The position numbers and the translations under genes are program-made. The notes under the pieces are model-generated. The model was not told where the DNA came from, ran no database searches, and saw only the letters and a list, made by a program, of their open reading frames with translations. From IMG/VR virus record IMGVR_UViG_3300026512_000002, positions 124,001 to 188,000 of that record: 64,000 nt of DNA, one strand, 5' to 3'. Origin of the DNA: a virus. Each line of letters begins with the position of its first letter. Positions within the stretch are counted from its first letter, which is position 1. Below, piece by piece: positions 3,097 to 59,941 of the stretch.

Positions 3097-3108
3097 TATA
3101 TAAGTGTT
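3097..3108 (-). promoter_or_regulatory. candidate late promoter, AACA-N6-TA
   Basis: Minus-strand AACACTTATATA; predicted start at 3097, 20 nt before the protease start codon. It matches the consensus shared by 17 sites in this window. Confidence 0.55.
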
Positions 3109-3188: not shown

Positions 3189-3200
3189 AACATATATATA
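3189..3200 (+). promoter_or_regulatory. candidate late promoter, AACA-N6-TA
   Basis: AACATATATATA; predicted start at 3200, 17 nt before the start codon of the candidate scaffold gene. It is back to back with the leftward element at 3097-3108. Confidence 0.55.
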
Positions 3201-4064: not shown

Positions 4065-4076
4065 AACAATAGAATA
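4065..4076 (+). promoter_or_regulatory. candidate late promoter, AACA-N6-TA
   Basis: AACAATAGAATA; predicted start at 4076, giving the major capsid mRNA a leader of about 57 nt, longer than the 16-28 nt seen at most other sites. Confidence 0.5.
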
Positions 4077-8519: not shown

Positions 8520-8531
8520 AACATTTAATTA
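8520..8531 (+). promoter_or_regulatory. candidate late promoter, AACA-N6-TA
   Basis: AACATTTAATTA; predicted start at 8531, 26 nt before the ATG at 8557. Confidence 0.5.
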
Positions 8532-11254: not shown

Positions 11255-11266
11255 AACAATTAATTA
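11255..11266 (+). promoter_or_regulatory. candidate late promoter, AACA-N6-TA
   Basis: AACAATTAATTA; predicted start at 11266, 16 nt before the ATG at 11282. It would drive the pre-sheath and sheath genes. Confidence 0.55.
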
Positions 11267-12032: not shown

Positions 12033-15000
12033 ATGGCTAATTATCTACATCCAACAATAACATCGTTTATTATTGATAAGTCCGAAACATTCTTTGAGAA
12101 CAATAGCGATGATACCACTAAAATATTTGGGGTTATAACATCTGATAAAGGTGAAGCTAATGTTATTAAAACATTTTACAACAGTGCTGACATGCTTGCT
12201 GAGTATGGTGAACCAGATTATACTAAACATGGTTACGTTTATTATAATTTATTAGATGCTGTTAAGAACGGTGCAGCTGTCAGTGTTATGAGAGTTGTTC
12301 CAATTGATAATCCTGATAGACCAGAAGTGTTATCAGGTTCATATGCTAATACATTTTTAGATATCCAAACTAAGTTAACTGCTGCTGTTCCTATGAATTT
12401 AGCAACACCACTTACAAATGGTGTTGATCATATTTCTGTATTCACAGATGATGTTGATTATACAGATGAAACTAAAGTTAGTGCTATAGATGGCGCATCA
12501 GCACCTACGCAGTTTTTAACAGTAGATCATATTAGGCCTGGTTCAACAGTTTATTTTAATGAAAATGTTTTTTCTGCAGGCAGTATGGATGTCAAAACAA
12601 TGTTTTGGGCAACATCTACTGATTTTTCAGTTGTTGGTCTATCTGTTGGATCACCAATTGATGTGAAAGCATCTGATGGTACTTTAATTGGCACAGCTAC
12701 TATTTCTGCTCAAAGTGGTACTGGTGGTATAAATAAGTATTCATTATTGTTAGAATCAACTTCAAATATTACTACAACTGATCAGGTGTTATTAGAATCA
12801 GCTGGTAATGTTGTTGGCTACGCATCATCAATCAAACTTATTGCTAGAGTATACGGTGCTAGTGAAGCTACTGCTACATACGATCAGGATTTAAGTAGTG
12901 TTACTGCTGGTAATGCTGGTGAAGCTGTTATCTTAAGAGTTAATGGTACTGATATAAATGTAGATTTGTCTACAGTTACAGCTAATGATGCCAATAGTGT
13001 TAAAACTTTATTTGATAATGCTATTAATAGTACAACATTCGATGGTACATGTACCACTTCTTTAAATGGTTCTAATCAATTAGTTATTGACACTACATCT
13101 GTTACACAAGTTAGTACTATTGATTTAGTTGACAATTCAGTAGCACCAGCTGGTGCCGATGATGGTTTACATAAAATTAATAGTGTTGTATCAAATATTA
13201 TAGGATCTGCTATTGATAGTATGACATCCATAGATAATATTAAAAATGATAGTTTAGTTACATTAACTGGTGGTAACTCTGGTGTATTTAGAATATTTTC
13301 TGGTAAAGCTGTTAAGCTTGCTGAATTCTATATTGAAGAAGTTCAAAGCGGACCAGCATTAGCAGATGATACTATTACGGGAATAGATGTTAGAGTTGAT
13401 ACTATTGTTACTGCTAGTAGAGACATTGATACCGATGGTTTTAATATTGTTTCTTTTAAGAATACACCAATTAATGGCACATTATTATTCTTTGAATTTG
13501 AAGGAACACCTGAAAGAGTCGAAGTTAGACCAACAACCATTTCTAAAAGAACTGATAGTGTTGAAGAACTTAAATCATTTTTATTGAATCCTACATCAGA
13601 TCCACTTATTAATGAAACCGATGATGGTTTTAAGAGACATATCTTTTTTGGTATAAGCAAGGGTATGTCTAAAAATGATAATGTATATGGTTTTAGATTG
13701 ACTAACAATAGTCAATATGATGAAGATAGTGAAGGTTTTAGATTCTATAATATTGAAATTCTTGAAAAAATTGGTAGCAATGAATCTGTTATAGACGGAC
13801 CATTTATAACATCATTTGATCCAAACGCTACTGATATATATGGTGGCTCTGTTTGGATCGAAAGTACATTGAGTAGAGATACTGATAAATTATCACACTA
13901 TTTTAATAAATCTGCTTATGATAAATTGTTAGAAGATTTAGGTGAAGCATCTGTTAATGCTGGTGAAACATTTGATCCGGGTAATTTTGATTTCATATTC
14001 GGTGCTGAAAGAGTGTTAAGAAGTAGAAGTGTTGATGAAGCTAGATATATTCATATTACAGATGAAAAATTTGTTGGTGGTGAAACTAGTAAAGTTATAG
14101 GTGGTACAGCAATAGCTCCTAAATATACTGAAACATTATTCATCACAAGATCATTTAGTGTTTCTGATGGTATTTTATATGAATCAGTTAACGGTAGTGG
14201 TTACACTACATCAGGAAGTTCAGGAAGTTTAGATGGTTATGATGCATTCGGTAATGTTTTATCATCATCAGATTATTTAACATTGCGTTCTGGTTTATTA
14301 GTTGATGCTTTCAACGGTGTTATTAATCCAGATATTTTTGATAAAAAATCATACCCATTCGATATTATTATTGATGGTAAAGAATCAACAGCGGTTAAAT
14401 TAGCAATTAATGATTTTGTAAACAATTCTTTAAGAAGTGACTGTATTGCTATGTTAGATACTGGTGAAAATAATAGAAACTATAGCAGTGAAATAGCATA
14501 TCGTAAAAATGAACTTGCTACAATCAATAGTTTCTATACTGCTATATTTGGACAAGGTTATCGTGTTTATGATACTTATACTGATTCAGTAATGAACCAG
14601 AGTATTATTAACGGTATTTGTAATAAAATAGCTCAACATGATAAAAACAATGGTACACATATACCTATGGCAGGACCAAGAGGTGTTATTGATGGTTATA
14701 TGGAAGATACATTAACATATTCTCCAAATGAAAATCAAATGGAAGAACTATATAATTCTAGAGTAAACTATATAAGTAAATCATCTAGTACTAGTGGTAG
14801 GTTGATGTCACAAAATACCTCACAATACAAAAACAGTGCGTTAACAAACATTAGTGTTGTTAGAACATTGTTACAAATGAAAAGAATGGTTGATAAGTTA
14901 GCTGAAAATTATCAGTGGTCAACATATAATGTTATTGCTAGTAACTTTCAAACTGAACTTAGTACCAAATTGGGTATGTTTGTAACTAATGGTGCATGTG

Positions 15001-15128
15001 AATATGTGAAACCTACAATATATGCTAGTGAATATGATAGAAGAACTAAGAAAGCTAGAATCAGAATTAAATTAAAATTCTCTGATTTAATAGAAAGTTT
15101 TATCATTAACTGGGAAGTAACATTCTAG
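12033..15128 (+). CDS. tail sheath protein
   Basis: 1031 residues, preceded by AAGAGGTTG. The start (YLHPTITSFIIDKSET, then FGVITSDKGEANVIKTFYNSADMLAEYG and NAVSVMRVVP-like text) is the N-terminal domain of myovirus sheath proteins, where a strand from the neighbour completes a sheet. The C-terminal about 250 residues (NSFYTAIFGQGYRVYD ... RTLLQMKRMVDKLAENYQW ... IRIKLKFSDLIESFIINWEVTF) are the conserved sheath core. The central 550 residues are Ser/Thr/Asp-rich and beta-rich, probably surface insertions; T4 gp18 is only 659 residues, so this is a long sheath. The protein forms the contractile tube around the tail. It is followed by a terminator and the tube gene. Confidence 0.88.
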   Translation: MANYLHPTITSFIIDKSETFFENNSDDTTKIFGVITSDKGEANVIKTFYNSADMLAEYGEPDYTKHGYVYYNLLDAVKNGAAVSVMRVVPIDNPDRPEVLSGSYANTFLDIQTKLTAAVPMNLATPLTNGVDHISVFTDDVDYTDETKVSAIDGASAPTQFLTVDHIRPGSTVYFNENVFSAGSMDVKTMFWATSTDFSVVGLSVGSPIDVKASDGTLIGTATISAQSGTGGINKYSLLLESTSNITTTDQVLLESAGNVVGYASSIKLIARVYGASEATATYDQDLSSVTAGNAGEAVILRVNGTDINVDLSTVTANDANSVKTLFDNAINSTTFDGTCTTSLNGSNQLVIDTTSVTQVSTIDLVDNSVAPAGADDGLHKINSVVSNIIGSAIDSMTSIDNIKNDSLVTLTGGNSGVFRIFSGKAVKLAEFYIEEVQSGPALADDTITGIDVRVDTIVTASRDIDTDGFNIVSFKNTPINGTLLFFEFEGTPERVEVRPTTISKRTDSVEELKSFLLNPTSDPLINETDDGFKRHIFFGISKGMSKNDNVYGFRLTNNSQYDEDSEGFRFYNIEILEKIGSNESVIDGPFITSFDPNATDIYGGSVWIESTLSRDTDKLSHYFNKSAYDKLLEDLGEASVNAGETFDPGNFDFIFGAERVLRSRSVDEARYIHITDEKFVGGETSKVIGGTAIAPKYTETLFITRSFSVSDGILYESVNGSGYTTSGSSGSLDGYDAFGNVLSSSDYLTLRSGLLVDAFNGVINPDIFDKKSYPFDIIIDGKESTAVKLAINDFVNNSLRSDCIAMLDTGENNRNYSSEIAYRKNELATINSFYTAIFGQGYRVYDTYTDSVMNQSIINGICNKIAQHDKNNGTHIPMAGPRGVIDGYMEDTLTYSPNENQMEELYNSRVNYISKSSSTSGRLMSQNTSQYKNSALTNISVVRTLLQMKRMVDKLAENYQWSTYNVIASNFQTELSTKLGMFVTNGACEYVKPTIYASEYDRRTKKARIRIKLKFSDLIESFIINWEVTF

Positions 15129-15144
15129 AGTATTTTTTCAATAT

Positions 15145-15170
15145 GGGGTCTTAAATAGACCCCTTTTTTT
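15145..15170 (+). terminator. intrinsic terminator between sheath and tube genes
   Basis: GGGGTCT (15145-15151) pairs with AGACCCC (15157-15163), loop of 5 nt, followed by seven T. The ribosome-binding site of the tube gene (AGGAG) begins directly after the T run. Confidence 0.9.
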
Positions 15171-15182
15171 AGGAGTAGTATT

Positions 15183-16094
15183 ATGATTAAAGCAGGGAAT
15201 TATAAGCAAAGATATAATAAAGAAAAACTGCAGTTCATGTCACCGTTAACTATAGGTGCTATTAAAGGTATTTCAAATCCATTTGTGGGTGGTTATGCAT
15301 TTTTCTTATTCATTTATGTACCAGATCAAATTAGAGCATTAACATCAAACCTTATAGGTCCTGATGAAGACAGATTATCAGCAACTGTTGTTAGTCATGC
15401 TGATAGAGATTTTTTCGATTTATGTGAAAAGACAGTTAAAGAAGTTCAAGGTATTCAAGATTGGACACTTGAAGTAACACAATTTAATGGTGGTTTTACT
15501 GGTAAAAACCATGCTATACCTACTGTTATGACTGACAGTACCGAATCCATTTCATTAAAATTTCAAGAATTATCAGGTGGTGTATATGGTACACCTGTTC
15601 AACAATGGGCTACAGCTATCAGTGATCCTAAAACTGGTGTTTCAACATTACTTAAAAGAGACAGTGTTGCTGACTATAGTGTTGAAGCAATTTATATTGT
15701 GACATCACCAAACGTTGCATCACCATCTAGAAAAGGTAGAGCTGAATCTTTAGAAAAAGCATTTTTCTTTGACAGTATGTTTCCTAAAAATGTTCCGCTA
15801 TCACATTATAACTATACTGCTGGTAGTCATGACTTAACAGAATTGACATATGAGTTTAATGCTGAAATGCATGTTGGTGCAGCAATTGATAAAAGAGCCA
15901 TGGAAATTCTATCTAGTGATTTCTTTTATGAAAACTATATTGTTTCTGGTGAAAAATATATTGCTAACAGAGTTAATAATAATAAATCACAATTATTTGA
16001 TGCTGATAATGAAGCTTTCGATGTATGGGGCGATAATGCTCAAGATGGTAGTTTTATTATTCGTGACGATAGTGTTGGTGAATCTATAGAATAG
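15183..16094 (+). CDS. tail tube protein (gp19-like)
   Basis: 303 residues, start 7 nt after AGGAG. It follows the sheath gene, as tube genes do in most myoviruses, and reads as a compact beta-rich protein with the elements expected of a tube subunit: a beta sandwich core (DWTLEVTQFNGGFTGKNHAIPT, SISLKFQELSGGVYGTPVQQW) and an aspartate-rich C-terminus. At 303 residues it is larger than T4 gp19 (163 residues), similar to tubes of other jumbo phages. It would form the inner tail channel for DNA. No separate promoter was found between the terminator at 15145-15170 and this gene, so expression may depend on read-through. Its last 11 nt overlap the convergent gene at 16084. Confidence 0.7.
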   Translation: MIKAGNYKQRYNKEKLQFMSPLTIGAIKGISNPFVGGYAFFLFIYVPDQIRALTSNLIGPDEDRLSATVVSHADRDFFDLCEKTVKEVQGIQDWTLEVTQFNGGFTGKNHAIPTVMTDSTESISLKFQELSGGVYGTPVQQWATAISDPKTGVSTLLKRDSVADYSVEAIYIVTSPNVASPSRKGRAESLEKAFFFDSMFPKNVPLSHYNYTAGSHDLTELTYEFNAEMHVGAAIDKRAMEILSSDFFYENYIVSGEKYIANRVNNNKSQLFDADNEAFDVWGDNAQDGSFIIRDDSVGESIE

Positions 16095-17529
16095 TTCTCA
16101 TAAATAAAAGTAATTCAAACATACCTTCATCTATATTCTTATTAAGTTCAAGATATTCTTTATTATCCATAACACTAGGTGTTATTTTAAACTCATTATA
16201 ATTAGGCAGTACCCAAAATTTATTATTCAAATAATTGGCTAAGTTCAATATAGGGTTTTTACGCTCCATTAATTTAGATTTAATAAAACTGTACTTTGTA
16301 TTAACCAAATCTTGATATATTTTAGTATTATTTAATCGTTCTATAAAAGTTTTTTTCACAATAGAACGTCTAGCTTCTATATCAACATCACTTATTAGAA
16401 CTTTATGTAAATACTTAAATCTTTTATGTTGGGATAATGATTTATATAACATACCTAACATAAGGATATAATCACCTTTATTAATATCATAATTGTATGT
16501 TTTTAAATAATTGCTATAAAATAATGTTACCAGAGTAATTTGGAACTGGGTTATAGTAACATATTTGTCAAGATATCTTAATTCCTCCTTAGTTATAAGC
16601 AAACCACTGTTTTTAAAATTTTTAAAAACTGCTTTTAATTTAGCAACTTTATGAATATCGTTTAATATTAATAAACCTTCATCTTTATGTTTTAGAGCAT
16701 TTTCAACTTTTTCATATGCAGTAACACCATCAGCATCCCTATTATATGATTTGCTAACAGAAAATTGGACATTAAAGTTTTCTCTAAACTTATATTCAAG
16801 TTGTTTTTTAATTGCAGCATGTAATAGTGGTATGGGTGATATTCTAACATCAATCTTGTATAGTATTAGTGTTAAAATTTTTTCATACACTTCTATTAAT
16901 ACAACATTTTGAGTACTATTAGTGTGCTTTAGATACTCCCACATATTAGTGTTGTTACCTTGACTCATCATGATTCTAGAATTGATAAATGCATATAGTT
17001 TAGGTATAATTAAATTATTATTAAACAACTCCATGATATGAACAAACATATTGTAGAAAACAGTGTTGTTTCCAGCAACATCATTGTTAGCAACATAGTC
17101 ACCTATAATAGGTATCGTTAACTTTATAACAAAACTGATTTTATGTAAATCTTGTATTTGTTGATTATTTATATATAGATCTTCATTTATAACATCTGAG
17201 CTTTCGTTATTAAAAGCAACTTCTGGTGATGGGTGATAATGCTCCCTAACATATAAATCGGCTATATCAACTATACCTTCGTTTAATATACGTTCTTTAA
17301 ACAATATTGAAAATTCTTCTTCTGGTAATTCCTTTAAAGTATAAAATTTTTTAAGAGCTATATACTTTTTAATTAAAAATGGATCTTTTTGAAAAGCATA
17401 TCTCATCGATTGCTTTATAAATGGCAACACTTTTATGAATCTTTTTTTCAAAATATCATAATCGTATTTTTCCCGTTCATTAACCTCTAATTGTACAATT
17501 CTATTTTCTGAATTAATTTTAACACCCAT
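16084..17529 (-). CDS. unknown 481-residue protein; candidate RNA polymerase promoter-specificity subunit
   Basis: 481 residues, AGGAGG 6 nt before the ATG. Predicted almost wholly helical, basic, with no membrane segment and no motif I recognise. It is the last gene of a leftward series with 17543-18274 (13 nt gap), downstream of the chaperonin region. In phage AR9 the promoter-specificity subunit of the non-virion RNA polymerase (gp226, similar length) lies two gene numbers from the chaperonin gp228; the comparable size, strand and neighbourhood here make this gene a candidate. That is inference from synteny only, as no shared motif was seen. A virion structural protein is the main alternative. 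Confidence 0.3.
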   Translation of the reverse strand: MGVKINSENRIVQLEVNEREKYDYDILKKRFIKVLPFIKQSMRYAFQKDPFLIKKYIALKKFYTLKELPEEEFSILFKERILNEGIVDIADLYVREHYHPSPEVAFNNESSDVINEDLYINNQQIQDLHKISFVIKLTIPIIGDYVANNDVAGNNTVFYNMFVHIMELFNNNLIIPKLYAFINSRIMMSQGNNTNMWEYLKHTNSTQNVVLIEVYEKILTLILYKIDVRISPIPLLHAAIKKQLEYKFRENFNVQFSVSKSYNRDADGVTAYEKVENALKHKDEGLLILNDIHKVAKLKAVFKNFKNSGLLITKEELRYLDKYVTITQFQITLVTLFYSNYLKTYNYDINKGDYILMLGMLYKSLSQHKRFKYLHKVLISDVDIEARRSIVKKTFIERLNNTKIYQDLVNTKYSFIKSKLMERKNPILNLANYLNNKFWVLPNYNEFKITPSVMDNKEYLELNKNIDEGMFELLLFMRTIL

Positions 17530-17542
17530 AATAACCTCCTAA

Positions 17543-18274
17543 TTATTTTCTACGTTTTTTTATTTTTGTAATTTTGACAGTTCGTTTCACCTTTTTTTTA
17601 CTTTTCTTAGTTTTTTTAGACTTATGTTTTTTGACACTTGTAAGTATTTCATCAAAAGTAGCTATTTTGCTTAAAAGTGCACTTTTACTATATTTGATTC
17701 TATATTTTTTAACATCAACACTTTGTTTAACATTTAAAAGATCCATATATCGTAAATATCGTATCGCATAATATATACTTTTTATAAAACCTAGTGAACT
17801 TAGTGGGTTTTTTATTTTTGGCGAATTTTCTTTAGTCTTTTTATTCAATTTACCATATAATTCAGTTGGGATCTTATCATTAACATATAATACATTAGCA
17901 TAAGTGTATATGAAATGAGGATCGTTGCTGAAAAATTTAGCAGGTTCTTTTATAGTACTACCATTATCACTAGGGTTAACATCTATTACTACATCATAGT
18001 GCATTTTATTAAAAGTTTCACTGGGTACTTTAACATGATATAAGTATCTGTTCGATGACTCGTCCCAGAATATTCTAGTGGTAAAATTACGTTCTTTTAG
18101 TAATTTAACAAATTTCATATCCAACATTTCAATCATCATACCCCTATTAGCAACCATTGCACTATATTTACCAGTGGGGTTTGTGATCATCCTATACATA
18201 GATAATTTTTCAGATTGTAATCTGTTGTCTATTTCTAGTTTTTCGTGAAGTATGGGTTTTTTAAAAGATACCAT
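17543..18274 (-). CDS. basic-tailed protein, unknown function
   Basis: 243 residues, preceded by AGGA at suitable distance. The N-terminal 130 residues look like a folded mixed domain (RIFWDESSNRYLYHVKVPSE, YDVVIDVNPSD). The last about 30 residues are almost all Lys and Arg, a nucleic-acid-binding tail. A related composition is common in phage virion or DNA-packaging accessory proteins. A weak promoter-like element (CACACTAATATT, 18289-18300, minus strand) lies 15 nt upstream. It is 13 nt from the gene at 16084. No family recognised. Confidence 0.5.
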   Translation of the reverse strand: MVSFKKPILHEKLEIDNRLQSEKLSMYRMITNPTGKYSAMVANRGMMIEMLDMKFVKLLKERNFTTRIFWDESSNRYLYHVKVPSETFNKMHYDVVIDVNPSDNGSTIKEPAKFFSNDPHFIYTYANVLYVNDKIPTELYGKLNKKTKENSPKIKNPLSSLGFIKSIYYAIRYLRYMDLLNVKQSVDVKKYRIKYSKSALLSKIATFDEILTSVKKHKSKKTKKSKKKVKRTVKITKIKKRRK

Positions 18275-18342
18275 ATGAAATCCTATACAATATTAGTGTG
18301 TATTATAACGACTATGTGTATAAAATGTCAATCTTTTTTTTT

Positions 18343-18354
18343 AACACATATATT
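18343..18354 (+). promoter_or_regulatory. candidate late promoter, AACA-N6-TT, facing a short intergenic unit
   Basis: AACACATATATT; it reads into the 330-nt gap between two leftward genes and is matched by a terminator at 18570-18606, which would make a transcript of about 250 nt. Confidence 0.35.
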
Positions 18355-18464
18355 AGGGTAGTTGCAATGTTGTATATGTGTGTGAATTAAGCATATATTT
18401 AATCAACACGATTGTGATTCTAATATCGAAGTTACGATATTTATTAGGAAGGAATACAAGTATT

Positions 18465-18509
18465 ATGTCAATAGTAACAAAAAAAAAGAAAAAGTGGATC
18501 GATTATTAA
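18465..18509 (+). CDS. 14-residue basic micropeptide, uncertain
   Basis: ATG 12 nt after AGGAAGG opens a 14-codon frame, MSIVTKKKKKWIDY, ending at TAA. It lies inside the small transcription unit 18354-18606. Five consecutive lysines followed by Trp suggest nucleic-acid or membrane binding if it is made. Frames this short are frequent by chance in AT-rich DNA, so the strong ribosome site and the isolated unit are the only support. Confidence 0.25.
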   Translation: MSIVTKKKKKWIDY

Positions 18510-18569
18510 AGCAACCAACACCACTCATGTTTTCAAAATCATTATAAGATAGTGATTTTAAAGATATGA

Positions 18570-18606
18570 TGTGGTGAAAATTATTCTAGATTTCATCACA
18601 TTTTTT
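18570..18606 (+). terminator. intrinsic terminator of the short rightward unit
   Basis: Stem 18570-18579 pairs with 18591-18600 (10 bp, one G-U), loop of 11 nt, followed by six T. On the opposite strand no T run follows, so it serves rightward transcription. Confidence 0.7.
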
Positions 18607-18607
18607 A

Positions 18608-19225
18608 TCAATATGCGGTATCGAAAAATTCGGATATTAACATATCTGAACTTTTCAATGTTGCATAATTGGCATCATCAATACCTTTTCTCATTATATT
18701 GTGATTAATCCCAATTGAATTTACGCTAACGCCTTCTATTAGCATATCTATATATGTTTCTAGTGTCTCAATTTTTTCTTTTATAAATCTATCAATGCCT
18801 TGGTCAACATACATTTTATTAAAATATAATTTATATTTCAAAAAAGTTTCTCTAAAATGATGTGTTAAATTATCTTTAACTGAATCAATACTAACAACTC
18901 TGATTATACTAACACATTTATCTATAACACTCATGATATTCGCATCAATCCTGTGATTTGTTTTCACATGTGCTTTGACGAGATCTAGACCAATAACTAA
19001 TAATCCTAGAAAATTATAAACTATTCGACCATCAGGTGAACCATCATTTGTTAAAATATTGGAATCTTGTCTTTTTTTCATATAATCGTCAACTAATTTA
19101 AAAAATTTATCTCTTTCAGAAGCTAGGTTATATATAGTAGTTTTACCAATCCCTATGGTGGATGCTTCTAGCATATCTTCCACAATTAAAGATAATTTCA
19201 TATTCATAACTGTTGTTTTATCCAT
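18608..19225 (-). CDS. helical protein, unknown function
   Basis: 205 residues, AGGA 7 nt before the ATG. Predicted all-helical, mixed charge, with GIGKTT near residue 26 that resembles the end of a Walker A loop but lacks the preceding hydrophobic strand and the rest of a P-loop fold, so I do not call it an ATPase. It has its own AACA-N6-TA element (19246-19257) despite lying just downstream of the chaperonin gene, which suggests late expression. No family recognised. Confidence 0.5.
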   Translation of the reverse strand: MDKTTVMNMKLSLIVEDMLEASTIGIGKTTIYNLASERDKFFKLVDDYMKKRQDSNILTNDGSPDGRIVYNFLGLLVIGLDLVKAHVKTNHRIDANIMSVIDKCVSIIRVVSIDSVKDNLTHHFRETFLKYKLYFNKMYVDQGIDRFIKEKIETLETYIDMLIEGVSVNSIGINHNIMRKGIDDANYATLKSSDMLISEFFDTAY

Positions 19226-19245
19226 AATTCATCCTATATATTGTT

Positions 19246-19257
19246 TATATTTTTGTT
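19246..19257 (-). promoter_or_regulatory. candidate late promoter, AACA-N6-TA
   Basis: Minus-strand AACAAAAATATA; predicted start at 19246, 21 nt before the start codon at 19225. Confidence 0.5.
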
Positions 19258-19319
19258 AACATATGTGTTATGATAGATGTGTTTAAATAATTTGTTTGAT
19301 TTGAATTTTTAATTAATAG

Positions 19320-21101
19320 TTATCTAACAATGCTAGGAGTGTCGATAAGAATTTGTCCTGTTGTTAATAGTAGTCCAATAATACTAAAAGCACTTTCTAA
19401 TATAACCAATTCAGTTAATGTTGGGTTAATAACTGACCAATCTTTATCTTCATATTGCTCCGTCACCATATTATAAACTATATTTTTTTCAATATACATT
19501 TTTTTAATCTCATCGATTCTTGCTAATAACTTATTCTTCACTGGTGCAACACCAATGATATTATCATTCTCAACATGATCGATTGTTATATCATATGCAC
19601 CACTGTTTTCCAACATCATTTTATACGGTGTTGTAAAAGCTACTAACAACCTATTTAGAATATCATTTAATAACTCGTTTCCATCGTTCTTACATTTATC
19701 TATTAAAATAGTCAACGCTTTAATCATACTCAAGTTACCACCAGGAACAATACCTGATTTAACAGCAGCTCTAGTAGCCAATGCTGCATCTTCTACAAGA
19801 TATTCTCTAGCTGTTTTATCTTCAGTTGTGTCACCACCAATATAAATAATAGCAACTTTACCATGTAACTTTTTATAACGTTCTTTTAAATTACCTAAAA
19901 CTTCAGTATAATCAACTTCTTTATCAGTTCTATTAACAATTCTATCTATCTCATCTTGTATTAAATAAAGTCGCTCATCCATTACTTTTTGTTCATAATC
20001 ACCATCGATAAATCTTGCCTGTTTATTAGTTATAACAATTTTTCTACATGTTCCAAATCTATTACTACTCCATGATAGGTTTTTATTATTAGTTATAGAT
20101 CTTAATGGTACTGCATTTAAATAAATTGCTAAATCTTCAAAAATTTCTTTATAGTTAGGTGTCGCTGTTGACATTCTAATTGCAGCTATAGGTAGATTAG
20201 GATTAATGTTTTTATTATGCATCAGAAAATCATTAGTAAAATCATGAGCAAAACCATTAGCTATAAAAATAATAGGTTTTCTTAACCCACCATCTGGTTC
20301 TGTTTGATCATTAATAATATTATATATAAACTTAGTATCCGCACCACTAAAAGTTCCATCATACATAATTATCAATGGTTCATCAAACTCTACGGTTTTT
20401 TTCTTAATATTTGTTATAAAAACAGGGTGTAAATAGCCCATATCTGCAACATAGCCTTCTTTAGACTCATAGTGTGTATCCTTACCTATTGATTTAGTTC
20501 CCATCAATGTAACGCCATTTCCCAATTCTTCATATATTTTACCAATAACATCACCTATTTCAACATCATTGTTTGCTGATATCGTAGCAACATTTTTAAT
20601 ATCGTCAACAGTTACAGTTGGTTTAGATATTTCATTCATAATAGTTTCAGAAATTTCATCTTTTATCTCATTAAGTATTGATAATAACTTGTGGGTCGGT
20701 GTAGTATGTTTTGTTCTCAAATCTTTTAAACTATTATACAATGTGTTGGCAATTATAATTGCAGATGTTGTGCCATCGCCAACTTTAGACATTTGTAAAA
20801 ATGATATTTGTTTAATAGTTTGTAAAACTTTAGCTTCGCCAGGGTTAGCATATTTAATATTGGTTAAGATAGTGTAACCATCTTTAGTAAAATATGTTCC
20901 TTTTAATGGGTCTCCAACCATAGTGTTTAACCCGAATGGTCCTAGTGAACTACCTACACTTGTTGTTATCTCATTAAGAGATTTTTCAATAATGTCTGTT
21001 GATTGTTTATAATCTAAAATATTTGTTGTTAAACCTTCTTCTTTTAGCATATTTTTGTTTCTATCTAAAAAATCTTGACTATATGGTACTGCGTATGTCA
21101 T
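19320..21101 (-). CDS. groEL: phage-encoded GroEL-type chaperonin
   Basis: 593 residues from the ATG at 21101, which has AAAGGAGG; the in-frame ATG at 21131 lies upstream of that site and overlaps the preceding gene. Signature positions of the equatorial ATP site are present: SSLGPFGLNTMV (53-61, cellular LGPKGRNVVL), FTKDGYTI (71-78), VGDGTTSAIIIA (107-118), IVPGGNLSMIKA, and a C-terminal ESAFSIIGLLLTT. It lacks the Gly-Gly-Met tail of bacterial GroEL. It folds or protects phage proteins in an ATP-driven ring; phage chaperonins of AR9, EL and OBP are known, without a matching co-chaperonin. No groES-like gene is seen here. It is the last gene of the baseplate operon, so its clients may be tail or baseplate proteins. 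Confidence 0.93.
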   Translation of the reverse strand: MTYAVPYSQDFLDRNKNMLKEEGLTTNILDYKQSTDIIEKSLNEITTSVGSSLGPFGLNTMVGDPLKGTYFTKDGYTILTNIKYANPGEAKVLQTIKQISFLQMSKVGDGTTSAIIIANTLYNSLKDLRTKHTTPTHKLLSILNEIKDEISETIMNEISKPTVTVDDIKNVATISANNDVEIGDVIGKIYEELGNGVTLMGTKSIGKDTHYESKEGYVADMGYLHPVFITNIKKKTVEFDEPLIIMYDGTFSGADTKFIYNIINDQTEPDGGLRKPIIFIANGFAHDFTNDFLMHNKNINPNLPIAAIRMSTATPNYKEIFEDLAIYLNAVPLRSITNNKNLSWSSNRFGTCRKIVITNKQARFIDGDYEQKVMDERLYLIQDEIDRIVNRTDKEVDYTEVLGNLKERYKKLHGKVAIIYIGGDTTEDKTAREYLVEDAALATRAAVKSGIVPGGNLSMIKALTILIDKCKNDGNELLNDILNRLLVAFTTPYKMMLENSGAYDITIDHVENDNIIGVAPVKNKLLARIDEIKKMYIEKNIVYNMVTEQYEDKDWSVINPTLTELVILESAFSIIGLLLTTGQILIDTPSIVR

Positions 21102-21111
21102 AACACCTCCT

Positions 21112-21363
21112 TTAATTTTGTTCGACACCATTTAATAATAATTTTTCATCATCTTCTGTTTTTTCAGGATGCTGTATTCTCATAAACGATTTATACATGT
21201 TATCTAACATGAACATATCGTATTTGTACATAATATCATTCAGCGGTACAGTTTTATCCATACCTAAATAGAAACCCATAATCTCATCCATAGTTGAGGC
21301 ATACTCTTCATTAACAGCTTCGCTTTTCTCAACATATGTTGTATCTAGATTAAAAGGTTTCAT
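21112..21363 (-). CDS. small protein overlapping the gp26/gp51-like gene, possible frameshift extension
   Basis: 83 residues from ATG 21363 (MKPFNLDTT) or 87 from ATG 21375. The gene starts inside the end of 21350-22771 in the +1 frame. There is no good ribosome site; GGGG precedes the second ATG. The overlap implies translational coupling, or +1 frameshifting at the upstream gene's ACC-TTT-TAA end, where the Phe tRNA could re-pair with TTT. The protein is acidic and helical with several Met (MYKYDMFMLDNMYKSFMR). The stop lies 10 nt before the chaperonin start. A tail or baseplate assembly role is inferred from the operon. Confidence 0.55.
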   Translation of the reverse strand: MKPFNLDTTYVEKSEAVNEEYASTMDEIMGFYLGMDKTVPLNDIMYKYDMFMLDNMYKSFMRIQHPEKTEDDEKLLLNGVEQN

Positions 21364-22771: not shown

Positions 22772-22792
22772 ATCACATACTCCTTTAAGATG

Positions 22793-23203
22793 TTATATTG
22801 TTTTATGTATAAATGCACTAATACCATTAGATATATTATTGTTGAATCTAAAATCAACCCCATATTGTGTAATATCATCTTTTACGTTATATACGATGCT
22901 CATTATAACCAAACCATTAATATTATCATCTTTTTTTATCGATATCGTAACTGTTCTCAATATTGGGATCTCATCCAAAAAAATATTAGAGATACTTCTA
23001 CTCAGTTCATCTAACACATCGTTTGTCAAGGTATTAAATTGATAATCTTGCAACCCTATACCGATAGAGCTAAACGGATATGCTTCACCAGCTAAAACTA
23101 TTATTATATGATACATTTGCACTAATGCTGTTTTAGCATGATTCAGAATGATACTGTTACCGTAATCATCTACATCTAGTGTCAATTCATTGTAAATATT
23201 CAT
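22793..23203 (-). CDS. baseplate wedge protein, gp25-like
   Basis: 136 residues, the length of T4 gp25. The order AGEAYPFSSIGIGLQDYQFN, a helix (NDVLDELSRSISNIFLDEIPIL) and paired strands (TVTISIKKDD, LVIMSIVYNVKD) is that of the gp25/lysozyme-like fold shared by contractile tails and type VI secretion TssE. In T4 it joins the wedge to the sheath base. It sits between the hub-like gene (13 nt) and the gp26/gp51-like gene (21 nt), as baseplate genes usually do. Key family Pro/Gly positions fit, but identity is low by eye. Confidence 0.55.
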   Translation of the reverse strand: MNIYNELTLDVDDYGNSIILNHAKTALVQMYHIIIVLAGEAYPFSSIGIGLQDYQFNTLTNDVLDELSRSISNIFLDEIPILRTVTISIKKDDNINGLVIMSIVYNVKDDITQYGVDFRFNNNISNGISAFIHKTI

Positions 23204-23215
23204 ACAACTCCATTA

Positions 23216-25636: not shown

Positions 25637-25656
25637 TACAAATCCCTATATATACT

Positions 25657-25668
25657 TATTATATTGTT
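25657..25668 (-). promoter_or_regulatory. candidate late promoter, AACA-N6-TA, for the baseplate-chaperonin operon
   Basis: Minus-strand AACAATATAATA; predicted start at 25657, 21 nt before the hub-gene start codon. Confidence 0.6.
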
Positions 25669-25683
25669 TTAAAGGTATTTTTC

Positions 25684-27519
25684 TTATTCGTATAATGATT
25701 CTATCATTGACGGTTTTTTATTCATATAGAAACGAGGATCATCTAATTGTTTTTTCAATTTCTCAAAACTGAAGCCAACAAACTGAGATTTGGTTTTAAT
25801 AGCTTCTGATAATCTTAATATACTATAGTCGTCAACAGTTATGTCTGGACTACTTAAATCTATATCACGATATATGTCACCACTATCCCTAATCATCATA
25901 CTGACTAACAATTCAACATGTGAGCTAACAATATCAATACCGTTCAATTCTATTAATTGTAGCAAATTGTTATAGTATGTCGAAAAATCTCCATCTAATA
26001 AATCGTTTTTACGATCAAATAAATATAACAACATATCTAGTGATTCTGATATTTCTTGATTATGAACTATAAATGTGAAAACAATTTTATTTAAAGTATC
26101 ACCGGTTATCACAATATCTTCATGTTCTATTGTGTCAAATTGGATATTTGCTGTTAATTTGACTGGTAAAACTATTTCCTCTTCAACATCTCCATTATGT
26201 AATGAGATAGTCATTGATACAATTTCCATGTGTTCTCGGCCTCTAGCAACATCTTCATTTGTAATAGTTATTGTGAAATCATTGTTATTTGGTATGATGG
26301 TATTATTATCTATATTGAAGTTATTTTTAATGATATCCGGCCATTCAATTTCATTAACATTAATCTTAGACATATGTTTGGTAGACAATATTGTTTGTGT
26401 AAACGGCTCCGTAGTACTTAAAGTTGAAACTATACCAACATGATAATCTTTTGTAACTTCATACATTTTCTTATTACCAAAACATTTTGAGCATACTTTA
26501 TTTTTTGTTTTGTAAGCACATGTGATAGGTGATCTAACACCAACAGTTGTGCCTATTAAATCGGTATCATCCATAGTAATATGTTTATCGGTACCTATAA
26601 TATTCTTACCAACTATTGTTTTTAAAATGTTCTCATTTTTCACAAAAATGTTTAAAGGCGTTTCACTACCACAATCACCATAAATAATACTCTCAGTATC
26701 CAATGATAATAGCTCAAATTTCCTTGTTAAATAACCAGCCTTACTAGTACCACCGAATATTAATATTGCGGCTTTACGAGCTGTTTCTGATGCTATATAT
26801 AAATCGCTAGCTGATCTCAGTCCACGTATAAGGGAAGTATTAACAGGTGTCGGTATAACACCCCCCATCATATTGGTTTTGAAACCTTCAACTAAAAAGG
26901 TCTCTTGCAACTGTTTAGGTTTGATACCAACACCACTATGGAGAAAATTCTTTAAACAAGTATCTTCGCTGTTTAAAATACTCAACATTCTATCTAACGC
27001 TATTTTAATTTTCTTTTCAGCTGTGTCTACAGGTTCGTTTGGATCTATATGATAGTCTAGTAGTTTTTTAAATTCTTTATTTCTAAAAGATAAATGTATT
27101 ATATCATATATATTTATAGTTGAACCTATATAGGTATTGGCTTTAGCTGCTAAAGTAGTCAATTCTTGTATTGCTTCTGCTATCAGTTTCTTAACAATAT
27201 ATCTATCTATATCTAAATCTAATAATGGTTGAAGTATATTTTGATCAATATGTTTATCCAATTCTTTAACAGTTGTATCTGTCATAATATTTGTATCAGA
27301 TATACTGATATTGAAATATATAAATGGTTTTAATATTATTAAATTCACATAGTATTGTGATTCTGTTAATTCTAATGTAACATTTTCATTTATTTTTACA
27401 GATACGATGTTGTTCCTTGTTTTAAAATCAATCTGTTTTAAAAATGATTTTATAGTTAGCGTGTACTCATCGTACGTGTCAAACATTAATGATTTTTCGA
27501 TTGGTTTACTGGTAGACAT
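25684..27519 (-). CDS. RNA polymerase beta' subunit, C-terminal half (split)
   Basis: 611 residues from the ATG at 27519, 5 nt after GGAGG; the ATG at 27531 lies inside the ribosome site. Roughly: residues 1-190 unlike bacterial beta'; about 205-265 the pre-bridge and bridge helix (GVIPTPVNTSLIRGLRSASD, YIASETARKAA, AGYLTRKF); zinc ligands in GDCGS (about 283) and CAYKTKNKVCSKC (about 335-347), so all four cysteines of the bacterial beta' C-terminal zinc site are kept; then the trigger-helix region VGIVSTLSTTEPFTQTILST (about 363-382), matching bacterial [20 protein letters not shown]. The catalytic aspartates are on the partner protein at 28781. It is a subunit of a phage multisubunit RNA polymerase of AR9/phiKZ type. 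No exact late motif precedes it. Confidence 0.88.
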   Translation of the reverse strand: MSTSKPIEKSLMFDTYDEYTLTIKSFLKQIDFKTRNNIVSVKINENVTLELTESQYYVNLIILKPFIYFNISISDTNIMTDTTVKELDKHIDQNILQPLLDLDIDRYIVKKLIAEAIQELTTLAAKANTYIGSTINIYDIIHLSFRNKEFKKLLDYHIDPNEPVDTAEKKIKIALDRMLSILNSEDTCLKNFLHSGVGIKPKQLQETFLVEGFKTNMMGGVIPTPVNTSLIRGLRSASDLYIASETARKAAILIFGGTSKAGYLTRKFELLSLDTESIIYGDCGSETPLNIFVKNENILKTIVGKNIIGTDKHITMDDTDLIGTTVGVRSPITCAYKTKNKVCSKCFGNKKMYEVTKDYHVGIVSTLSTTEPFTQTILSTKHMSKINVNEIEWPDIIKNNFNIDNNTIIPNNNDFTITITNEDVARGREHMEIVSMTISLHNGDVEEEIVLPVKLTANIQFDTIEHEDIVITGDTLNKIVFTFIVHNQEISESLDMLLYLFDRKNDLLDGDFSTYYNNLLQLIELNGIDIVSSHVELLVSMMIRDSGDIYRDIDLSSPDITVDDYSILRLSEAIKTKSQFVGFSFEKLKKQLDDPRFYMNKKPSMIESLYE

Positions 27520-27586
27520 GATGACCTCCATGGTTAAATAATAACCATTAAATCATATTGTACTACTAAATGTCAAGATAGGTTTT

Positions 27587-27964: not shown

Positions 27965-27988
27965 TGTTAACCTCATAAATACATTTAT

Positions 27989-28000
27989 TAATGTAGTGTT
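27989..28000 (-). promoter_or_regulatory. candidate late promoter, AACA-N6-TA
   Basis: Minus-strand AACACTACATTA; predicted start at 27989, 25 nt before the start codon at 27964. A one-mismatch copy on the other strand (GACAATAATATA, 28022-28033) faces the gene at 28051. Confidence 0.45.
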
Positions 28001-28050
28001 TATCTAGCAATAACCAATGAGGACAATAATATAAATAATGTGGAGATATC

Positions 28051-28761: not shown

Positions 28762-28780
28762 CTATAATAATGGAGTTTAT

Positions 28781-30382
28781 ATGATAATAGATATTAATGA
28801 AATTACGAAAATTGTTGATTACAATAACATTAAAGAAGTATATGATCCCATATACTTAAATATGGATATGATGCCTACAGCAGGTGGTGTGTTTTCATAT
28901 GAAATATTTGGTAAATCACCATATGATCGTAAAAATACTTTCGCATATATAAATTTAGGTAAAAAATATATGCAACCAGTGATATATACTATGTTAAAAG
29001 TTATGAAACGTAATATTGTAAAATGTTTAGATTCTACAGGTAAGTTTAATATAATTGATGGTGAAATGGTTAAAGATCCTAATGGTATTAGTGGTGTTGA
29101 TTTTGTATATAAAAATTGGAATAAGTTAAGATTCGAATATGGTGAAAATCCGAGTCCTGTTAAAAAAACTAAAGTTGACCTAATAAATAAAATGACACGA
29201 GATGAAATATTTACAGATAAGTGGTTGGTGATACCACCCTTCTATAGAGATTTAAACATGTCTGATGTTGCTAGTGGTAAATTATTCATAGATGATTTAA
29301 ATAAATATTACATAAAATTAATAAACCTAACACGTAATAATATCAACAACGCTACTATGGATTTGGATTTTGTATCTAATAAAGTTGATGCGTTAATCAA
29401 TGCACAATTACTTATAATATACCAATATTTTCAAGGTAAATTGGCGAAAAAGAAGGGTATTATAAAAGATAAACTTCTTAAAAAGGTTATTGATTATTCT
29501 AGTAGAGGTATTTTATCAGTAGCATCTAAGACTCATAACAAGCCAACGGATGTACCTGTCACATATGATACTACAGGATTACCATTACCACATGTAATAT
29601 CATTATATTTTCCCATATTAGTTTCATTAATACATGATGTTATACACGCTTATATCAAATCACATGTACATAAAATGTATGTTCTTAATTCTAAAAATGA
29701 ACTAGTGTCAAGAGATATATCAAATGATGAAATAATAAACATCGAAAACAATTACACTCACGATAAAATAGAATTGGTTCTTAAAAAACTTATTAGGGAT
29801 CATGATTTTAGGTTGAGCTATATAGAATTTAAGTATAATAAAAAAGATGTAGCATATCTAGCATATGATTTTAAAAACGACATTCTACCGGAGGAATCCC
29901 TAGTGAATGTTCAAGGAAAACCAATTAGACTTACATGGTTAGAATTATTATCAAAAGTTGCTCACGCTAACCTACTTCCTGGTAAAATGATAGTGTTGAC
30001 CAGATATCCTATGGAACATTTTCACAACATCCTATTTAGTAGAGTTAGAATGTTAACTGTTGATAATATAACTAATTTTGCAGGTTGTTTAACATTTCCA
30101 ATATTGGTGCGTGAAAAAGATGGTACAATAAATAAACACAATGTACAACATATGGATACTATACAAGTTGCATCTGCTTACTTAAAGGATATTGGTGGGG
30201 ACTTTGATGGTGACTCAGTTAGCGTAAGATCATTATATTCTAAAGAAGCTAATATCGAAGCTGAACAATTAATGAAAAAGAAAATAGGTATGCTCAATGT
30301 TGATGGTTCTGGTGCTAGACATGTTATAAACGAAGGTGTTCTAGGACTATATCTTTTAACTAAACGACAACCTAAAAAATAA
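28781..30382 (+). CDS. RNA polymerase beta' subunit, N-terminal half with catalytic DFDGD (split)
   Basis: 533 residues, preceded by TGGAG. Near residue 395 LLPGKMIVLTRYPMEHFHN matches the bacterial 'GRPVLLNRAPTLHRL' segment, and GGDFDGDSVSV (aspartates 474, 476 and 478) is the universal NADFDGD motif that holds the catalytic magnesium. The protein ends soon after GVLGLYLLTK, the counterpart of bacterial 'DVVLGLYYMT', so the split lies just beyond the active-site loop. The N-terminal zinc ribbon and clamp of bacterial beta' are not evident. Its partner is the C-terminal half at 25684-27519, encoded on the other strand 1.3 kb away. It is followed by a 165-nt gap with a strong terminator. Confidence 0.9.
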   Translation: MIIDINEITKIVDYNNIKEVYDPIYLNMDMMPTAGGVFSYEIFGKSPYDRKNTFAYINLGKKYMQPVIYTMLKVMKRNIVKCLDSTGKFNIIDGEMVKDPNGISGVDFVYKNWNKLRFEYGENPSPVKKTKVDLINKMTRDEIFTDKWLVIPPFYRDLNMSDVASGKLFIDDLNKYYIKLINLTRNNINNATMDLDFVSNKVDALINAQLLIIYQYFQGKLAKKKGIIKDKLLKKVIDYSSRGILSVASKTHNKPTDVPVTYDTTGLPLPHVISLYFPILVSLIHDVIHAYIKSHVHKMYVLNSKNELVSRDISNDEIINIENNYTHDKIELVLKKLIRDHDFRLSYIEFKYNKKDVAYLAYDFKNDILPEESLVNVQGKPIRLTWLELLSKVAHANLLPGKMIVLTRYPMEHFHNILFSRVRMLTVDNITNFAGCLTFPILVREKDGTINKHNVQHMDTIQVASAYLKDIGGDFDGDSVSVRSLYSKEANIEAEQLMKKKIGMLNVDGSGARHVINEGVLGLYLLTKRQPKK

Positions 30383-36508: not shown

Positions 36509-36582
36509 GTTTTAATAAAATCCACATAATAAACTATATACAACTATTATAAAATTAAAAATACATTGACATGTTTCTATAT

Positions 36583-36595
36583 GATATGTTAACAT
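36583..36595 (+). promoter_or_regulatory. GATATGTTAAYAT motif, candidate non-late promoter
   Basis: GATATGTTAACAT, 28 nt before the ATG at 36623; see the matching element at 35987-35999. Confidence 0.3.
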
Positions 36596-36622
36596 TTCAT
36601 CATATTATTTATGAGGGTTATT

Positions 36623-38179
36623 ATGAAACATGTTAACAACATTTACAAACTTATTCAAGACGATGTGTCTAAACGAGAACCGTTTAATAACGATTTTTTA
36701 AAATTAAAAGCTAACGATAACTTATTACAATATATTGACGTTATAGCTGGTACTCTTGAAAAAATTGATGGTATAACATATTTGGGTTCAGAGATACGTC
36801 CTGAAAAAGAAGTTATTGAGAGCAGGAAGTTTAAAAATATAGAAGAATCTAGATTGATATTGATAAATCTTAAATTCAGAATCAGAGGTGTTATAGATCA
36901 GAATAAAGAATATAAAGAAGAAGAATATACTTTACCATTATTTTTCTTTAAATTGATTAATGATAATTATTTTATATACAACGGTGTTAAGTATGTTCCT
37001 ATATATCAAATAGTTGACAAATTCTATAAATTAAACAATGTCTTAGTTCTTAAAACTTTAATGATGGGTGTTTTTTTACGTGGTAATAAAACATCTATAG
37101 AATCAATGACAGGGGCAATATACAATGGTCGTGAATATAAAATACATCTGTTTAAAAAGAAAATACCAACATTGCTTTATTACTTAGCTAAATTTGGAAT
37201 GGCTAAAACATTAGAGTTTTTTGATTTAACAACCGATGATATTAAAATATTACATAGTAAAAATAATGCTGCAGAATACAATGAAGCTTTAATAAATCAA
37301 AATATAGATGTGTTTGAATTGCAAAAAAATACATATTTGTTAGTTAAAAAAGACAGTATAACAGATCAACTTAAAACCGATGTGGTTATATCTCTACACA
37401 CTCTTTTTTCTAAAATGCCTAAATTTAGATATAGTTCTCTTAAATCACCTGACTATTATTTTAAGAAATTCACTAACTCGTTTACAACTAATCCAAATAA
37501 TACTAAAAAAGGTGAAAAAGTTCTAATTTCTTTTGAAAAAATATTTGATGAACAAACAAAATTTGTGTTAAACATAGACGATAAAGACAAAGAAGATGTT
37601 TATCATATTGTAAAATGGATGATGAAAAATTTTAATAAATTGATGAAACAAGACAATATGGATTTAGGTAATAAGAGATTGCGTTTCTATGAATATATGC
37701 TTATACCACTTATAGTTAAATTTAACAGTTCTAACAATAGATTGTTTAATGATAAAGGTACTGTGACATTTAGTCAACTTCAAACTATATTTAAAAGAAT
37801 TAGTCCTAGTTTTTTATTGAAATCAATTATATCTAGTAATAGTTCAACCATATCAGAATTAATACGTTATGATAACACATCGTTCAACAACATTGATCTG
37901 TTTAGTATGCTTAAAGCGTCTATTAAAGGCCCACAATCTATAGCTAGTAAAGGTGCTAGTGGTAGAACGGAAATACCACTAAGATATAGAAACATACATC
38001 CAAGTTACCTAGGTAGAGTTTCTATAACATATGCTCCTAGTAACGATCCAGGTTTAAATTTCATATTAACACCTTTTGTAGAAGTTGATGATAGAATGTA
38101 TTTTAAAAAATTAAGACCTGAATTACAAGAAGAAGTTGATAAACTGTCATCAAATGTAGGTGAAATAATAAATGTATAA
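36623..38179 (+). CDS. RNA polymerase beta subunit, N-terminal half (split)
   Basis: 518 residues from ATG 36623 (GAGGG 5 nt upstream; ATG 36611 lies before that site). The decisive segment is near residues 435-480: LLKASIKGPQSIASKGAS, GRTEIPLRYRNIHPSYLGRVSITYAPSNDPGLNFILTP, matching bacterial beta '[45 protein letters not shown]', the fork-loop and rifampicin-pocket region. The first 400 residues keep only loose similarity to the beta lobes. The protein ends soon after this region; the C-terminal half (with the conserved GDKxxxRHGxKG lysines) is not in the window. It belongs with the beta' halves at 25684 and 28781. Confidence 0.85.
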   Translation: MKHVNNIYKLIQDDVSKREPFNNDFLKLKANDNLLQYIDVIAGTLEKIDGITYLGSEIRPEKEVIESRKFKNIEESRLILINLKFRIRGVIDQNKEYKEEEYTLPLFFFKLINDNYFIYNGVKYVPIYQIVDKFYKLNNVLVLKTLMMGVFLRGNKTSIESMTGAIYNGREYKIHLFKKKIPTLLYYLAKFGMAKTLEFFDLTTDDIKILHSKNNAAEYNEALINQNIDVFELQKNTYLLVKKDSITDQLKTDVVISLHTLFSKMPKFRYSSLKSPDYYFKKFTNSFTTNPNNTKKGEKVLISFEKIFDEQTKFVLNIDDKDKEDVYHIVKWMMKNFNKLMKQDNMDLGNKRLRFYEYMLIPLIVKFNSSNNRLFNDKGTVTFSQLQTIFKRISPSFLLKSIISSNSSTISELIRYDNTSFNNIDLFSMLKASIKGPQSIASKGASGRTEIPLRYRNIHPSYLGRVSITYAPSNDPGLNFILTPFVEVDDRMYFKKLRPELQEEVDKLSSNVGEIINV

Positions 38180-38228: not shown

Positions 38229-38240
38229 AACAACTATATA
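38229..38240 (+). promoter_or_regulatory. candidate late promoter, AACA-N6-TA
   Basis: AACAACTATATA; predicted start at 38240, 23 nt before the ATG at 38263. Confidence 0.55.
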
Positions 38241-42529: not shown

Positions 42530-42541
42530 TATTTAATTGTT
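42530..42541 (-). promoter_or_regulatory. candidate late promoter, AACA-N6-TA
   Basis: Minus-strand AACAATTAAATA; predicted start at 42530, 20 nt before the start codon at 42510. Confidence 0.55.
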
Positions 42542-46569: not shown

Positions 46570-46581
46570 TATACTATTGTT
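46570..46581 (-). promoter_or_regulatory. candidate late promoter, AACA-N6-TA
   Basis: Minus-strand AACAATAGTATA; predicted start at 46570, 23 nt before the start codon at 46547. Confidence 0.6.
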
Positions 46582-51901: not shown

Positions 51902-51913
51902 AACAATATATTA
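51902..51913 (+). promoter_or_regulatory. candidate late promoter, AACA-N6-TA
   Basis: AACAATATATTA; predicted start at 51913, 20 nt before the ATG at 51933. Confidence 0.6.
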
Positions 51914-55427: not shown

Positions 55428-55439
55428 AACAATGGATTA
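55428..55439 (+). promoter_or_regulatory. candidate late promoter, AACA-N6-TA
   Basis: AACAATGGATTA; predicted start at 55439, 24 nt before the ATG at 55463. Confidence 0.55.
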
Positions 55440-59929: not shown

Positions 59930-59941
59930 AACATTAAATTA
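59930..59941 (+). promoter_or_regulatory. candidate AACA-N6-TA promoter
   Basis: AACATTAAATTA; predicted start at 59941, 45 nt before the ATG at 59986, farther than at most sites. Confidence 0.35.

Follow-up and report, generated by a model that had tools for sequence, protein, structure and literature searches.

The 481-residue ORF at 16084-17529 raises the question of which protein guides a split phage RNA polymerase to its late promoters, and which base of the template strand it would read there. The ORF lies in a window of 64,000 nucleotides, the whole stretch analysed here, which corresponds to bases 124001-188000 of a 227,696-base IMG/VR virus record. A preliminary description had proposed the ORF as a candidate promoter-specificity subunit homologous to gp226 of phage AR9, and had characterised its product as basic, all-helical and without known motifs. 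The ORF was confirmed; it starts with ATG and has an AGGAGG ribosome site close 5′. The basic character was likewise borne out (67 K+R against 56 D+E, pI 9.15), and "all-helical" was close to correct, the AlphaFold2 model being dominated by predicted helix with some predicted strands. The lack of known motifs holds for Pfam, in which no family was matched at E up to 1, sigma-70 domains included, but not for PHROG 25005, annotated "RNA polymerase", which was matched at E 1.5e-22.

The protein shares 23% identity with AR9 gp226 over 444 aligned columns and matches the AR9 gp226 chain of PDB entry 7s01_A over query residues 57-443 (E 2.2e-14). A tblastn search of 50,697 phage records matched 17, all between 251 and 274 kb, of which 10 are Staphylococcus phages and 7 Bacillus phages. 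A profile search added g245 of phiR1-37, as well as a homologue in two parts from Listeria phage LPJP1; the gp226 profile matched in 8 of the 15 records searched. The LPJP1 homologue (L009:5475-7094) is annotated as two CDS, which are separated by a TAA at 6621-6623. When viral contigs were scanned, the window protein gave no match, alignment A1 recovered AR9 only, and the chaperonin recovered one distant contig, which was left out of the analysis.

The AlphaFold2 model, computed from an alignment of 17 sequences (that of the window and 16 relatives), had a mean pLDDT of 78.9 and a pTM of 0.53, and showed the large N-terminal domain, finger and C-terminal domain of the gp226 fold. The structure comparison that had been proposed as a check ranked 7s01_A first among PDB entries (Foldseek 6.2e-16; Z 27.7, 422 residues aligned), ahead of the other two AR9 entries and phiKZ gp68 (Z 11.8), so that the fold is nearer AR9 gp226 than phiKZ gp68. 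The whole-chain rmsd to 7s01_A was 18.5 Å, which is most simply attributed to a domain placement left unfixed in the model; the C-terminal domain alone superposed on 7um1_A with Z 16.1 and 2.9 Å over 173 residues. A helix is predicted at residues 194-202, and mean pLDDT for residues 191-200 was only 63. The protein may also be distantly related in structure to bacterial sigma factors, as has been proposed for gp226 (PMC9209446).

The surroundings of the ORF agree with this assignment. The chaperonin lies on the same strand with the ORF downstream of it, as previously described, and two genes, the 205-aa ORF and the 243-aa gp227-like gene of Table 1, stand between them. Also the proximity and similar length ascribed to the AR9 proteins were found correct, gp226 of AR9 having 464 aa and being located two genes after the chaperonin gp228. 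The order chaperonin, gene of about 254-290 aa, gp226 occurs in AR9, BpSp, five Staphylococcus phages and phiR1-37, and the window keeps it with the one extra 205-aa ORF, for which no convincing family match was obtained. All four split beta/beta′ core halves and the gp226-like subunit are encoded on the one 227,696-base contig. The equivalent of Arg363 of the AR9 beta N half is kept in all 8 rows compared. The position of AR9 Lys375 in the same half was considered as a U-reading residue and rejected; it is Gln here and K, N or R in relatives (N in Staphylococcus phages), and is therefore not diagnostic. The virus contigs L039 (G009) and L040 (G010), which differ in sample number, encode identical beta N proteins. 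Membership of the 481-residue protein in the gp226 family is secure, and sequence, predicted fold, gene order and partner genes agree with the assignment.

Table 1. Features of the window and of the surrounding contig. Positions are those of the window unless a contig or locus is named.
Feature	Position	Strand	Remark
Late-promoter motif	3097..3108	-	head protease gene
Late-promoter motif	3189..3200	+	
Late-promoter motif	4065..4076	+	major head protein gene
Late-promoter motif	8520..8531	+	
Late-promoter motif	11255..11266	+	virion structural protein gene
gp226-like promoter-specificity (sigma-like) subunit, 481 aa	16084..17529	-	homology and predicted fold
Residues 384-394, IEARRSIVKKT	16348..16380	-	AR9 pseudo -35 element-binding motif; four positive charges
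Residues 234-235, Pro-Leu	16825..16830	-	AR9 Ser245-Tyr246 (non-template strand groove)
Residues 194-203, TNMWEYLKHT	16921..16950	-	AR9 2.1bis helix (205-214); Asn195 = Val206
gp227-like gene, 243 aa	17543..18274	-	PHROG 20045; directly upstream of gp226-like gene
TTGACA-N18-TATAAT	18302..18331	-	12/12 sigma-70 consensus match; upstream of gp227-gp226 pair
205-aa ORF	18608..19225	-	between chaperonin and gp227-like gene; own late-promoter motif
Late-promoter motif	19246..19257	-	205-aa ORF
Chaperonin	19320..21131	-	AR9 gp228 homologue; syntenic marker
Late-promoter motif	25657..25668	-	806-aa ORF
nvRNAP beta′ C-terminal half	25684..27531	-	AR9 gp154 homologue, 31%
TTGACA-N18-TTTAAT	27547..27576	-	upstream of beta′ C half
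Late-promoter motif	27989..28000	-	
RNAP beta′ N-terminal part	28781..30382	+	homologue of AR9 g145 (virion RNAP)
TTGACA element	36566..36595	+	2 mismatches to full consensus; upstream of beta N half
nvRNAP beta N-terminal half	36611..38179	+	AR9 gp105 homologue, 38%
Late-promoter motif	38229..38240	+	
Late-promoter motif	42530..42541	-	
Late-promoter motif	46570..46581	-	virion structural protein gene
Late-promoter motif	51902..51913	+	
Late-promoter motif	55428..55439	+	
Late-promoter motif	59930..59941	+	
nvRNAP beta′ N half	contig 97170-98090		AR9 gp270 homologue
nvRNAP beta C half	contig 117711-119675		AR9 gp089 homologue
Thymidylate kinase-ThyX pair	L019:1381-2668 (contig 189381-190668)		starts 1.4 kb past window end

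The late consensus of AR9 is AACA-N6-TA, and enumeration of gapped motifs 5′ of mechanically called genes placed it among the top motifs both in AR9 and in this genome. In the 51 upstream regions of the window and its two 20-kb neighbours it occurred 23 times, against a mean of 6.9 and a maximum of 17 in 1000 dinucleotide shuffles; the window alone had 14 occurrences in 30 regions (shuffle mean 4.1, maximum 11). AR9 as positive control gave 26 against 5.5 expected in 78 regions. The longer AACA-N6-TAA was found 19 times here (shuffle mean about 2.4-2.6, maximum 8) and is thereby more strongly favoured than in AR9, with 6 against 2.2. A spacing of 6 between AACA and TAA accounts for these 19, and the remaining spacings between 2 and 12 gave 1 to 7 each. 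Most of the motifs (17/23) have their first base 24-42 nt 5′ of the start codon, and the genes so marked include those of the head protease, the major head protein and other virion proteins; no AACA-N6-TA precedes the gp226-like ORF itself. Read on the opposite strand, these regions held 12 occurrences of the motif (11 in AR9), part of which may represent divergent promoters. None of 18 single-base variants came near it in number and an alternative promoter motif was thus rejected; AACA-N6-TC reached a similar ratio at low numbers (4 against 1.3), and a spacer of 5 or 7 after AACA gave 10 against 7.2 and 11 against 6.5, respectively. Judged from its letters, this genome carries putative late promoters of the AACA-N6-TA type, and by analogy with AR9 the AACA motif would be read by the gp226-like protein. 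When 60 kb were sampled from each of 12 other genomes, clear enrichment of the motif was seen in G004, G006, G011, G013, G016, G020 and SA1 and weaker enrichment in phiR1-37 and G009; LPJP1 was marginal (5 against 2.7), and no clear enrichment was seen in the samples of G026 (0 against 2.1) and G019 (1 against 0.2).

In AR9 the -10 U of the template strand is buried against the 2.1bis helix, where the methyl group of a thymine would clash with Val206 (PMC9209446). The AR9 enzyme requires uracil in its promoters because of this residue; the V206G mutant takes T as readily as U, and among close homologues of dU phages Val206 has been called "absolutely conserved" (PMC9209446). The same paper assigns the functions of the 2.1bis, Ser245-Tyr246 and pseudo -35 residues in Table 1 and reports that alteration of Tyr246 to Ala abolishes transcription of dsDNA. 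In the window protein the Val206 hallmark of the U-specific subgroup is replaced by Asn195. The other 30 rows of the 31-row alignment have 27 Val, one Ser (G006) and two Thr (G004 and G011), a count to be read knowing that some rows are near-duplicates and that many Val rows were found by a search pattern itself containing Val. L066-L069 were reached through the beta N gene, are therefore free of this bias, and have S, T, T and V.

Further residues around the pocket are changed. The AR9 signature T200-x-Y202-x-D204-x-V206 is lost and reads S-Q-G-N-N-T-N, with Gly for Y202 and Asn for D204, and Pro-Leu stands for S245-Y246; the 2.1bis helix retains Trp208, Tyr210, Leu211 and Lys212. The 246 position, Leu235 here, is aromatic in 27 of the 30 other rows and Leu also in L066, L067 and L069, so the aromatic residue is a functional one of AR9 and not a feature of all members. 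Since Tyr246 to Ala kills dsDNA transcription in AR9, Leu235 would need compensation. Unlike the Gly of V206G, Asn keeps its C-beta, and acceptance of T is therefore not implied by Asn alone. The replacement of Val206 by Asn195, the other changes in the same helix and the change at Tyr246 are taken together likely to be an adaptation to T.

The gene content of the contig bears on the base in question. It encodes a ThyX (1.9e-42) beside a thymidylate kinase gene, the ThyX protein containing RHRMASYVQNSTRY, which we take to resemble the ThyX signature, and a dUTPase (5.1e-29). PF06941 (PBS1-type dTMP phosphatase), PF00383 (dCMP/dCTP deaminase) and ThyA had no match in the 227,696-base, possibly incomplete contig. 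For enzymes typical of dU phages the search covered the first two of these; families of the dTTP pyrophosphatase (HAM1) and HD-hydrolase types are known from further dU phages. Likewise phmmer with the dTMP phosphatase, deaminase and Ung inhibitor of AR9 gave no match in the examined stretches of this genome; weak dTMP-phosphatase matches appeared in stretches of phiR1-37 and G020, which had no Pfam family there. AR9, BpSp, phiR1-37 and S6 are reported as dU phages (PMC7598289), and the dU phages studied so far have, according to PMC12697855, dCTP deaminases and dT-nucleotide phosphohydrolases. Because the contig makes dTMP through its thymidylate kinase-ThyX pair and removes dUTP through its dUTPase, the virion DNA of this phage likely contains thymine. 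A class II-like ribonucleotide reductase ORF with an internal intein-splicing domain match was also observed at L028:913-3177 (contig about 4-6 kb).

Among 33 other records, most of them fragments or of unstated completeness, ThyX was matched in three (G005, G010, G011), dUTPase in three (G005, G009, G019) and ThyA in none; the 22.8-bit dUTPase match of G019 was rejected as a dCTP deaminase-like protein (PF22769, 69.3 bits). The seven named phage records had no match to ThyX, ThyA or dUTPase. A rule by which any residue other than Val at 206 denotes thymine DNA was weakened by three genomes. G009 has Val aligned at 206, yet a dUTPase is present, and G004 (Thr) and G006 (Ser) have a dCMP-deaminase-family gene near beta N (L066 and L067, which are G006 and G004, with L033 and L035) and no match to ThyX, ThyA or dUTPase. 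G005 has both ThyX and dUTPase; its 30-kb contig has no gp226 match and therefore provides no residue at 206.

Two trees were built, from which the change from Val to Asn is most simply a derived one. In the gp226 tree, built from 25 of the 31 rows (L054, L060, LY01, S6, Madawaska and the LPJP1 fragment were left out), the window pairs with L042, a row with Val at 206, at a support of 100/99; the end branch of the window is long and was flagged as unsure. In the beta N tree of 18 rows, from which L029, L031 and L038 were omitted because they were regarded as repeats of AR9, G001 and phiR1-37, the window groups with G001, AR9, LPJP1 and the Staphylococcus phages (92/94), phiR1-37 lies outside this group, and G005 and G009-G011 lie further out. 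As the trees are midpoint-rooted only, they do not establish an order from T to U to T, with thymine as a reversal.

The explanation that we favour, with good confidence, is that the protein serves as sigma-like fifth subunit in the late, non-virion RNA polymerase (nvRNAP) of the phage and is an orthologue of AR9 gp226, whose reading of AACA/TTGT on the template strand has been adapted to thymine. By analogy with AR9 it would bind the core by joining the four split beta/beta′ halves and would confer promoter-specific initiation by opening late promoters. The -10 template strand (3′-TTGT-5′, opposite AACA) would be set between the 2.1bis helix and the beta N half, and initiation would occur 11 nt downstream of the first motif base. 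The subunit would read T in the template strand where AR9 requires U, because the phage DNA very likely contains thymine. The chances are about even for the more specific proposal that the promoter letters of AR9 were kept while the chemistry changed, giving a T-recognising template-strand polymerase that arose, within a group in which the members studied have uracil, by replacement of the methyl-excluding Val and its neighbours.

An orthologue of gp226 could also be present while AACA is read otherwise, on the non-template strand or by a beta lobe as in phiKZ, the altered 2.1bis helix no longer reading the template strand. The lost TxYSDxV signature and Leu in place of Tyr246 are in line with this, and in phiKZ, whose DNA contains thymine and whose subunit is homologous, TATG is recognised on the non-template strand by gp123 (PMC12809450). 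We nevertheless regard it as rather unlikely, as the motif resembles that of AR9 in its letters, in the spacing to TA and in how far it lies from start codons, and Trp208, Tyr210, Leu211 and Lys212 are kept along with Arg363 of beta N. That the phage has dU-DNA after all, its U-specific enzyme tolerating Asn195 and its ThyX and dUTPase having other roles, appears very unlikely. The dUTPase destroys the precursor of dU-DNA, ThyX, ThyA and dUTPase are matched in none of the seven named phage records, and PF06941 and PF00383 match nothing in the contig; in its favour, reported dU phages are among the neighbours of the window in the trees, and the relatives with Thr or Ser, carrying a dCMP-deaminase-family gene, may themselves be dU phages. 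A virion or unrelated helical protein without a role in transcription is suggested only by the tail genes on the opposite strand (12033-16094), which adjoin the ORF, and its probability is close to nil, since sequence, fold, gene order and partner genes point to gp226. A portal or other virion protein, or a fold unrelated to gp226, had been named beforehand as what would speak against the proposal; neither was seen, and homology and fold rule the former out.

Compared with known systems, the closest is the AR9/PBS1 nvRNAP (gp226 in 7s01_A, 7um0_A and 7um1_A), with which homology, fold, the GroEL-gp227-gp226 order, the four split halves, a positively charged pseudo -35 loop and AACA-N6-TA promoters are shared. 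It differs in the residues at 206, 245 and 246 and the signature lost here, in lacking the present combination of thymidylate kinase-ThyX and dUTPase with unmatched PF06941 and PF00383, and in its weaker preference for TAA. The homologues g245 of phiR1-37 and of Staphylococcus phages S6, SA1, Madawaska, AH12 and LY01 share family and gene order but have Val at 206, and phiR1-37 and S6 are among the reported dU phages (PMC7598289). phiKZ gp68 (8que_B, 9rjs_B) is a homologous two-domain sigma-like subunit from a thymine-DNA phage; its late consensus TATG is located at the start site, and there is no AACA element (PMC12809450). Further related papers are PMC7618050 and PMC13282480. A literature search with subscription papers and preprints outside its scope found no thymine-DNA phage combining the AR9 promoter consensus with an altered U-discriminating residue. 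Such a phage would bridge AR9, with its template U, and phiKZ, the thymine relative studied so far, with its very different recognition. If the more specific proposal of kept letters and changed chemistry is true, this enzyme is a natural counterpart of the laboratory V206G enzyme and shows a genome-wide base swap and the transcription machinery changing together. Such a phage would also allow a direct test of whether the need for uracil is set by a few naturally swappable pocket residues, and of what else must change.

The genes of the polymerase itself appear to be marked by a different element. In addition to the three sites in Table 1, TTGACA precedes the beta′ N and beta C genes (L017 and L018), the spacing to TATAAT being only 8 for beta C. 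TTGACA was found 25-57 nt before the start codon in 5/5 nvRNAP transcription units against 1/52 other regions (Fisher 1.4e-6, post hoc); the pattern was first noticed in four of the five units, and therefore only beta′ N is an independent confirmation. The site upstream of the gp227-gp226 pair is the only perfect sigma-70 consensus with an 18-base spacer within 15000-30000, a section in which sigma-70-like sites showed no excess (145 against 127.3 in shuffles, sd 12.8). Counted over all upstream regions examined, TTGACA occurred 6 times, against a shuffle mean of 1.7 and maximum of 8 and with 4 on the reverse strand, which is not extreme, and it is the placement of the element, not its number, that is striking. 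Here again AR9 differs, as 11 annotated AR9 early promoters carry ATATATTAT, whereas in this genome TTGACA precedes the nvRNAP genes.
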